The notes under the pieces were generated by a model. It ran no database searches. It had not been told where the DNA came from and was given only the letters and a program-made list of their open reading frames with translations. Of a stretch of 52,318 nt of DNA, positions 44,639 to 46,184 are shown one piece after another (within the stretch, counting starts at the first letter, position 1; every line of letters begins with the position of its first letter). This stretch comes from a virus. Both the position numbers and the translations under genes were made by a program. Location: positions 1-52,318 of IMG/VR virus record IMGVR_UViG_3300032331_000666; one strand, given 5' to 3'.

Positions 44639-45253
44639 CTACCAAAACATAGTCAATACGTCATCAATACGTATTAAATGCCCCTGCAATGTAATCCTGT
44701 AATCACCTTCAACATATTCTTTTAGTCCAGCAATTCTATGTAATACAGTTCCATCATGGCCTATGATCTCTTTCTCTGCATAAGGCAGATACTTTTGCTC
44801 TCCATCTTCAATATAATCCAACCCTCCCCCACCTGTAGGTAGTTTAATTACCACTGTAAATGCATAGGGGTCAATACTGCCTAAATCTAGAGTAATATGC
44901 GGGTAGTCTTTATGCCAAAGTCCTGCATGGGTGAGCAGGAATCGGCTTGAAACGAATATATGAAAGGATGGGTGAGATAGAGAATAGTTAAGCTTTATTG
45001 GCTCTTTAAACTGATCTGATAAGTAATCAATAATGATATCATATGTGTCGCCAAACTGTTCACGCAGTATGGGATTTAATACCTTGAGATCTTGTCTGTA
45101 TTCTGGAGTCTTACCATCTAGGTAAGCGTTTCTTCCAAGCGTATAGAAGAAAAATTCATTTGATCTGGATACCCAATACTTCTGAAGTCTAAAGACTTTA
45201 TCAGCTATCTCTTCAGTATTGATATCTAATTTGTGAGAAATAAAAGGGGGCAT
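44639..45253 (-). CDS. 2OG-Fe(II) oxygenase-like protein, downstream of pqqA
   Basis: Start at 45253 (204 residues, MPPFISHKLDINTEEIADKV). The double-stranded beta-helix part has WHKD (H114, D116), a distal His in VLHRI (H172) and Arg in DYRITLQG (R186), the HxD...H...R layout of 2-oxoglutarate/Fe(II) dioxygenases. Substrate unknown. It follows pqqA on the same strand, 17 bases downstream, with a hairpin covering its start codon. Whether it acts on the peptide or elsewhere is open; a fold-only cupin relative is the alternative. Confidence 0.6.
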   Translation of the reverse strand: MPPFISHKLDINTEEIADKVFRLQKYWVSRSNEFFFYTLGRNAYLDGKTPEYRQDLKVLNPILREQFGDTYDIIIDYLSDQFKEPIKLNYSLSHPSFHIFVSSRFLLTHAGLWHKDYPHITLDLGSIDPYAFTVVIKLPTGGGGLDYIEDGEQKYLPYAEKEIIGHDGTVLHRIAGLKEYVEGDYRITLQGHLIRIDDVLTMFW

Positions 45254-45260
45254 AGCCCCC
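45238..45260 (-). terminator. hairpin after pqqA with T tract, overlapping the next start codon
   Basis: On the minus strand GGGGGC (45260-45255), loop TAT, GCCCCC (45251-45246), then TTTTATTT. It lies ten bases after the pqqA stop and should terminate most transcripts. The ATG of the oxygenase-like gene (45253-45251) is in the loop and 3' stem, so the hairpin may also limit its translation. Confidence 0.7.
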
Positions 45261-45269
45261 AATTATACA

Positions 45270-45341
45270 TTACTTATTCATTACGTACATCGTCACTTCA
45301 AAGCCAAATCTCATTTCTGTTGCTGATGGAGTTGTCCACAT
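45270..45341 (-). CDS. pqqA: PqqA-like PQQ precursor peptide
   Basis: A 23-residue peptide beginning MWTTPSATEMRFGFEVTMY. Known PqqA peptides have the same length and pattern: MW-x-x-P near the start, a conserved R, and G-F/L-EVT-M/L-Y, where Glu15 and Tyr19 are crosslinked by the radical-SAM enzyme PqqE and excised to make pyrroloquinoline quinone. Here E15 and Y19 fall at exactly those positions. AAAGGAAA lies five bases before ATG. No pqqB-E genes are in the window, so it would feed the host's pathway. PQQ serves methanol dehydrogenases of methylotrophs. Confidence 0.85.
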   Translation of the reverse strand: MWTTPSATEMRFGFEVTMYVMNK

Positions 45342-45373
45342 AATATTTTCCTTTGTATATAAAAAAGACCTAT

Positions 45374-45457
45374 TTTTGCTACACAAACACCTTTGTATGT
45401 AATTTACTCCATACAAGCTAGTTTGTATTGAATATAATGCGCCTTTTGCTATACAAA
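45374..45457. repeat. 14-base direct repeats upstream of pqqA
   Basis: TTTTGCTACACAAA (45374-45387) and TTTTGCTATACAAA (45444-45457) differ at one base and start exactly 70 bases apart. Read toward pqqA each begins TTTGT(A/G)T, a -35-like box, and the nearer copy is followed by TATATA. More TTTGTAT/ATACAA copies lie between (45353, 45392, 45410, 45422). They look like operators or tandem promoters for pqqA. A perfect TATAAT on the plus strand lies at 45433-45438. Confidence 0.5.
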
Positions 45458-45675
45458 GTCCTCCATAAAACCATGAATGACAGGTAAAAAAGTAACTCTA
45501 ACAATAAGTAGAGATAGAAATAAGTGTAAAGTATGCTTTACATTGGTTTTCACTCAAATCATTGATTTATATACAAATGAATGAAAACAATATTTAATCA
45601 ACTGTAAAAATCAATATGCCTTCTATATAACATTTAGTTATATACATCTATTTCTATATAACTTATATAAATATG
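45458..45675. other. AT-rich non-coding control region with dyads
   Basis: No credible gene in either strand. It holds a perfect dyad TGTAAAG-TATG-CTTTACA (45525-45542) and an imperfect 14-base dyad, GTTTTCACTCAAAT with AAATGAATGAAAAC, about 20 bases further on, then very AT-rich sequence. It separates leftward pqqA from rightward genes, so a divergent control region is likely. Replication origin is a possibility, given AT content and nearby repeats. Confidence 0.45.
45624..45662. repeat. three TATATAAC boxes upstream of the sRNA promoter
   Basis: TATATAAC (45624-45631) and its inverse GTTATATA (45637-45644) form a perfect 8-base dyad around ATTTA. A third TATATAAC is at 45655-45662. The two direct copies, within identical TTCTATATAAC, are 31 bases apart, about three helical turns. 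They end 14 bases before the -35 box, consistent with repressor or activator sites. Confidence 0.55.
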
Positions 45676-45704
45676 TTGACACGGATATAGGGATTTGATA
45701 TAGT
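45676..45704 (+). promoter_or_regulatory. consensus sigma70 promoter of the small RNA
   Basis: TTGACA (45676-45681), a 17-base spacer, TATAGT (45699-45704). The -35 is perfect and the -10 differs at one base, the best promoter in the window. The predicted start is near 45711, exactly where the first RNA hairpin begins. Confidence 0.82.
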
Positions 45705-45710
45705 TTCGTT

Positions 45711-45815
45711 GTGAGTCCCTTTCCTCACATGTCTTTCCTTTACATCTCTCTCGTAAAGTCTCGGTGTCCCTCGCACCTTAAAACCCTTAGATTAAAACCT
45801 AGGGGTTTTTCTTTT
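45711..45815 (+). ncRNA. predicted ~105-nt small RNA with three C/U-loop hairpins
   Basis: It is bounded by a consensus promoter and an intrinsic terminator and contains no reading frame. Hairpin 1: GTGAG (45711-45715)/CTCAC (45724-45728), loop TCCCTTTC. Hairpin 2: CTTTAC (45738-45743)/GTAAAG (45753-45758), loop ATCTCTCTC. Hairpin 3: GGTG (45763-45766)/CACC (45774-45777), loop TCCCTCG. All loops are pyrimidine-rich and two hold UCCCU, able to pair with Shine-Dalgarno AGGGA, as in UCCC-loop regulatory RNAs such as staphylococcal RsaE. Segment 45734-45741 is complementary to the pqqA ribosome site. No known family recognised. Confidence 0.72.
45780..45815 (+). terminator. intrinsic terminator of the small RNA
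   Basis: AAAACCCTTAG (45780-45790) pairs with CTAGGGGTTTT (45799-45809) over eleven positions with one G-T wobble, then TTTTTCTTTT. The A-rich 5' arm also allows function on the opposite strand. Confidence 0.85.
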
Positions 45816-45856: not shown

Positions 45857-45976
45857 ATGAGAGAAGTGAATGAAAGACTAGTGATGTATTTCTACGTCAT
45901 TATCTTCCTATTCCCTTTTGTCCGTACTCCAAACGTTATCACTGAACCTAAATGGGTTGCGTGGAATAATACATAG
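45857..45976 (+). CDS. 39-residue possible membrane micro-protein
   Basis: The 39 residues contain a hydrophobic aromatic stretch (LVMYFYVIIFLFPFV) and a Trp-containing tail (EPKWVAWNNT). AGGAG lies 11 bases before the ATG. It follows the small-RNA terminator, so expression would need read-through. It could be a chance frame; base composition and a fair ribosome site favour a gene modestly. Confidence 0.35.
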   Translation: MREVNERLVMYFYVIIFLFPFVRTPNVITEPKWVAWNNT

Positions 45977-46184
45977 GCCTTGTTACACCCGCAAGCGAGC
46001 CTCGTGAACTTAAATGGGTATCACACAAGATATACTGCCACGGGGTGACTTGCCAACAGTATGTCGATTGAACATTAACTCTGTGTAGGACTGGTATTGG
46101 GTAGCTTCTATTGCTTAATGTGGGTCAAAGGTGTGTCCATCTCACCCTTGGCGGAGCCATATTCTAAAAAAACGAAAGGATCAA
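45977..46184 (+). other. 208-base non-coding stretch, GC-richer, with pairing potential
   Basis: No credible gene on either strand. Possible stems: ATACTG / CAGTAT around CCACGGGG..., and GGTG / CACC near 46131-46147. GAACCTAAATGGGT (end of the 39-codon frame) recurs as GAACTTAAATGGGT about 60 bases later. It is noticeably richer in G and C than its surroundings. It could be the structured 5' leader of the operon starting at 46185; no known RNA family or tRNA is recognisable. Confidence 0.4.

Follow-up and report, generated by a model that had tools for sequence, protein, structure and literature searches.

Major methanol oxidisers of coastal and fresh water include the OM43 and LD28 bacteria, which need PQQ enzymes for growth; a published OM43 medium is supplemented with 1 nM PQQ (PMC9004378). 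One PqqA peptide is consumed per PQQ molecule, while the pathway enzymes act repeatedly. Methylophilaceae carry pqqA in 3-12 copies and pqqBCDE singly (PMC4109929), and of the five pqqA genes of another producer grown on methanol, the stand-alone pqqA3 is one of the two with the highest expression (PMC9851590). The literature cites crosslinking of Glu to Tyr by PqqE with PqqD. PqqA added to a cell-free extract yields PQQ, according to work cited in PMC9851590, and in Gluconobacter pqqA is reported second among the single genes whose overexpression increases PQQ, according to work cited in PMC7936290. In some hosts, flux may be limited by PqqE or PqqB and not by PqqA (PMC9851590, PMC7936290).

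PqqA has also been named in viruses. Coutinho et al. 2020 (PMC7678222) designated it an auxiliary metabolic gene (AMG) in one T4-like Lake Baikal virus population, VP_266, and viral pqqA, D, and E are listed, with no further description, in a reservoir study of 2026 (PMC13188868); the kind is thus already known. The window analysed here, an entire IMG/VR virus record of 52,318 bases, resembles VP_266 in that a Methylophilaceae virus encodes PqqA as a proposed AMG. VP_266, however, is a single T4-like population that also encodes methanol dehydrogenase, whereas here pqqA stands alone and recurs in at least three unrelated contexts. New are the breadth of pqqA alone across unrelated phage types, the strong selection acting on it, and its unannotated presence in cultured model phages. 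With a probability of roughly three in four, the phage encodes a genuine, functional PqqA, alone of the PQQ pathway, that feeds host PQQ synthesis during infection.

The pqqA gene of the window

The first-pass annotation, which gave no strand, had placed a 23-residue PqqA with a good ribosome site, its own downstream hairpin, and exactly positioned Glu15 and Tyr19 at 45270-45341. The frame is real and lies on the minus strand, and each of these features is present (Table 1); a plus-strand reading was rejected because it contains a stop codon. The profile search proposed at that stage places the peptide, MWTTPSATEMRFGFEVTMYVMNK followed by TAA, above both curated cut-offs over the full models: PF08042 PqqA with 41.3 bits (E 1.4e-10, model 1-19/19, cut-off 21.1) and TIGR02107 of NCBIfam with 38.5 bits (E 6.9e-10, model 1-21/21, cut-off 20). 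As 222 ATG frames of 20-30 aa occur in the window, the PF08042 match is well beyond chance from multiple trials. The peptide shares with the PqqA family of Methylophilaceae its length, Trp2, Pro5, Arg11, and the GFEVTMY core, and its E15 and Y19 form the Glu-X3-Tyr arrangement of a PQQ-forming short peptide.

Table 1. Features of the window around pqqA and elsewhere
Feature	Position	Strand	Remarks
pqqA, PQQ precursor peptide, 23 aa	45270..45341	-	ATG at 45341, TAA ending 45270; PF08042, TIGR02107
Shine-Dalgarno AAAGGA of pqqA	45349..45354	-	read from sequence; 7 nt before ATG
Intrinsic terminator GGGGGC-TAT-GCCCCC, then T-rich tail TTTTATTT	45246..45260	-	directly 3' of pqqA
Upstream region conserved with pqqA	45342..45478	-	92.4% over 45268-45478 in relative G127/L326
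Neighbour gene, up to 207 aa (204 aa from ATG at 45253)	44639..45262	-	phrog_24927; no Pfam match
Very large protein, 2384 aa	30790..37944	+	phrog_14770, phrog_616
Conserved non-coding stretch	45970..46145	+	
Possible small RNA unit	45676..45815	+	upstream of pqqA, other strand

Like the genes of Methylophilaceae, pqqA of the window has a Shine-Dalgarno sequence and forms a stand-alone unit with a terminator, and its DNA identity to cellular copies reaches 91.7%. It differs from them in being phage-encoded and apart from pqqB-E, although OM43 hosts likewise keep pqqA apart from pqqBCDE. Its promoter likely lies within the conserved upstream region, where no convincing sigma-70 site was found. 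Across viral pqqA genes, the upstream promoter signal is barely above that of shuffles, so no promoter is claimed.

The carrier (G+C 38%, with no tRNA genes or Rfam matches found in the window) encodes a major head protein, a tail fibre, structural proteins, a DNA-ejection-like protein, an exonuclease, an Erf annealing protein, a metallophosphoesterase, a helicase, and a primase; here, as in cultured isolates, the host metabolic gene sits on a true phage genome. A terminase, sought in the window with phrog_2, was not found, so the record may be incomplete. That the window carries the precursor alone, as had been claimed, is borne out by tblastn using host PqqB, C, D, E, and PQQ methanol dehydrogenase as queries, which gave zero matches in the window while control records matched. 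In a separate comparison, apparent tblastn matches of an ORF antisense to host pqqA were trivial and were discarded.

Distribution, contexts, and selection of viral pqqA

Viral pqqA was sought in IMG/VR with degenerate DNA patterns for the core motif. The first scan returned at least 120 stretches, with a PqqA frame in every one listed, and four partitioned scans gave at least 420 PqqA frames in at least 419 viral loci (the window and six phage records included). Diversity among those listed amounts to at least 347 distinct DNA and at least 145 distinct peptide sequences. The scan of related phages suggested in the first-pass annotation found the frame there too: in DNA comparison of the pqqA surroundings, six phage records match over exactly the pqqA frame, and in the annotated phage collection the frame is present in P19250A, Venkman, MEP301, MEP401, MEP402, four Melnitz phages, and the metagenomic phage MW202481. 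All but the last are cultured Methylophilales phages isolated on OM43 or LD28 hosts, and the methylotrophic host predicted from the sequence holds. PqqA is annotated in none of the ten records; at this place, the Melnitz phages and MW202481 instead have a 'hypothetical protein' annotated on the opposite strand. The main texts of the papers on Venkman, the OM43 phage of PMC8024684, MEP401/402, and Melnitz leave pqqA unmentioned, and PMC10580990 includes a section on AMGs without it. Of the expectation that phage pqqA is widespread but undescribed, the first half stands, together with the gene being missed in annotation; the second does not (PMC7678222, PMC13188868). Separately, a large viral-labelled contig (L502, IMGVR_UViG_3300013093_000017, 229,675 bp) contains two pqqA copies about 130 bp apart with identical peptides.

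On the host side, pqqA was found in 120 of 120 sampled Methylophilaceae genomes, mostly in several copies and in up to 12. The OM43 strain LSUCC0665 has a pqqBCDE cluster without pqqA, all three copies of which lie elsewhere. Linkage to pqqB-E, common in the PqqA family, is absent from the window and the 419 listed viral loci; as pqqA is unlinked in LSUCC0665 too, such linkage does not define PqqA in Methylophilaceae.

Misassignment of host DNA to viruses does occur. One viral-labelled contig (L050/L325, G135; IMGVR_UViG_3300025120_009955) has pqqA beside genes for formate dehydrogenase, methanol dehydrogenase, and FecR-like, curlin-like, and adenylate cyclase proteins, and is probably cellular DNA. 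Among 50 long viral records, no other has methanol dehydrogenase, which was rejected as a pqqA partner because this lone carrier looks cellular. A record named 'Acinetobacter phage' (L322, CAKLQF020000010.1), which served as positive control, contains a host pqqABCDE operon with ppk and is likely a bacterial contig deposited under a phage name. As an explanation of viral pqqA in general, misassigned host DNA is nevertheless extremely improbable. Nine sequenced phage isolates bear the gene, and the window has genes for head, tail-fibre, and recombination proteins as well as for a helicase and a primase. Among the 419 listed loci, phage marker genes lie within 5 kb of pqqA in 231, any gene common to cellular pqqA surroundings is shared by only 13, and PqqB-E genes near pqqA were found in none, while the control matched. 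No host-chromosome flank was seen in the window or the isolates.

Comparison of about 10 kb around each pqqA by any shared gene joined the loci into one large connected component; contexts were therefore counted by marker families among the flanking genes (PHROGs). Among the 419 listed loci, 41 have a T4-type RegA/Hsp20 context, 44 the major head protein phrog_371, and 103 an exonuclease/SSB context, with zero overlap between the three groups among those listed, although one phage type with pqqA at two places could count in two groups since the comparison spans only about 10 kb. Viral pqqA sits in at least three unrelated gene contexts, the firmest separation being that of the RegA/Hsp20 group from the phrog_371 and exonuclease/SSB groups. 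The window and the compared part of the L094 record share only 84 bp of DNA, consisting of the pqqA frame and its ribosome site. In the closer relative (G127/L326), the left flank is 68-78% identical, as against 92.4% for pqqA and its upstream region, and the 207-aa gene is missing.

Five viral pqqA genes are 100% identical in DNA to a cellular copy, which might be taken for an unexpressed, attP-like patch of host homology used in integration or recombination. This reading is largely refuted and has a very small chance of being correct: the identity ends at the frame, similarity over the 40 nt downstream of the identical pairs being at background; a tyrosine integrase is absent in 50 of the 50 viral records checked, the window among them; and the peptide is kept although its synonymous sites are close to saturated.

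Viral pqqA is under purifying selection. At codons outside the search pattern, dN/dS is 0.166 (dS about 1.0, dN 0.17; 0.13-0.21 in subsets of 30); an initial value of 0.088 was dropped because it included codons fixed by the search. In the first set, each of the 168 viral pqqA genes is preceded by a Shine-Dalgarno-like motif, and terminator-like hairpins follow 71 of 158 viral copies, compared with 1.2 in shuffles. Viral pqqA is a translated peptide, neither an RNA nor a relic.

The pattern of conservation also bears on whether the phage peptide acts as a decoy, occupying PqqD/PqqE or diverting the pathway and thereby lowering or redirecting PQQ synthesis. A short peptide that resembles the native one can compete for the modifying enzyme, and pqqA arrives without the pathway enzymes. 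In a decoy, however, the crosslinked residues should be free to vanish, yet Glu and Tyr are kept in 125 of 125 viral frames in which codons 15 and 19 had been left free in the search. Moreover, the peptide is often identical to that of the host, with MWTTPAATEMRFGFEVTMYVMNK the most frequent form in viral and host sets alike, and a true substrate would be unable to starve the pathway of its product. A decoy is thus an improbable account of the gene.

Proposed role of phage PqqA

Supply of precursor to host PQQ synthesis, the favoured reading, follows from the make-up of the host pathway. As pqqA is present throughout the sampled hosts and usually multicopy, while pqqBCDE is single, the phage most likely supplies the part that is consumed per PQQ; and as host copies such as those of LSUCC0665 lie apart from pqqBCDE, the phage gene adds a further stand-alone dosage unit built in the same way. 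We infer that it is expressed in infection, is processed by host enzymes, and benefits the phage. In an infected Methylophilaceae cell, phage-made PqqA would be taken up by host PqqD/PqqE, PqqE would crosslink its Glu15 to Tyr19, and a host protease, PqqB, and PqqC would complete the cofactor, which would then load host XoxF/Mxa methanol dehydrogenases. Because each PQQ uses up one PqqA, the only pathway part so spent, continuous resynthesis is needed. When the phage curbs host expression, PqqA would be the first part lost, while the enzymes would persist and turn over; hence a phage shutting off host expression would need to replace only the 23-codon pqqA. These 23 codons would be the cheapest means to keep PQQ, and hence methanol dehydrogenase, supplied. 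Counting against this role, hosts already hold several pqqA copies, so one extra is not obviously limiting.

Cyanophages replace the fast-turnover D1 protein (psbA) as an AMG. By analogy, what phage pqqA resupplies may be just that component of a host energy pathway which is consumed fast; D1 is a membrane protein of the reaction centre, whereas PqqA is a 23-aa RiPP substrate consumed stoichiometrically.

Processing by a PqqE-like enzyme could instead serve a phage-specific use, such as a signal or an anti-defence or superinfection-related RiPP. In a 2024 mining study, co-expression with defence systems was seen for a RiPP family annotated as PqqA (PMC11118758), and the neighbours of pqqA vary between phages, so no fixed metabolic partner points to PQQ. 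Such a use is unlikely, given that PqqE scores above its cut-off in none of 50 long viral records and that the viral sequence is indistinguishable from the host precursor.

Precursor supply may extend well beyond this record. It is somewhat more plausible than not that methylotroph phages have a general strategy of providing only the precursor peptide of a RiPP-type cofactor pathway, one that unrelated phages of T4-like, head-module, and recombination-module type took up repeatedly and that exploits the PqqA dosage bottleneck behind host pqqA amplification; if so, infection by these phages would be coupled to the turnover of methanol in lakes and coastal seas. The presence of pqqA in hundreds of differing phages that infect such hosts suggests that host methanol oxidation may be kept running during infection. 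Should pqqA be routine in OM43/LD28 phages, viral control of one-carbon turnover would rest on a gene missed by annotation. As cultured pairs exist (Venkman/H5P1, MEP401/FZCC0133), the claim is directly testable, and the case is a reason to search phage genomes for further substrate peptides of very small size.

Neighbouring and other features of the window

Both pqqA and the adjacent gene are oriented opposite to the mostly plus-strand genes around them; moron-type inserts are often oriented against surrounding genes. The ATG of the 204-aa form of the neighbour falls in the loop of the pqqA terminator. An HxD motif with distal His and Arg is invariant in three homologues of this protein, a pattern like that of 2OG-Fe(II) oxygenases, while its AlphaFold model is uninformative (pLDDT 35). 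The gene is kept in record L058, is not beside pqqA in L326, and lies 5 kb off in L016; as adjacency to pqqA is not conserved, it was rejected as a pathway partner.

Elsewhere in the window, the 2384-aa protein matches very large phage proteins of unknown function. On the strand opposite pqqA, a strong sigma-70-like site (TTGACA-17-TATAGT with TG) has an intrinsic terminator about 75-110 nt downstream of it, and the two may form a small RNA unit. Two related viral records and phage MW202674 (77% DNA identity) share the nearby conserved non-coding stretch; its single-sequence folding stability is ordinary (z 0.17) and it matches no Rfam family, and a four-sequence alignment with 14 pairs changed on both sides suggests a structured RNA.
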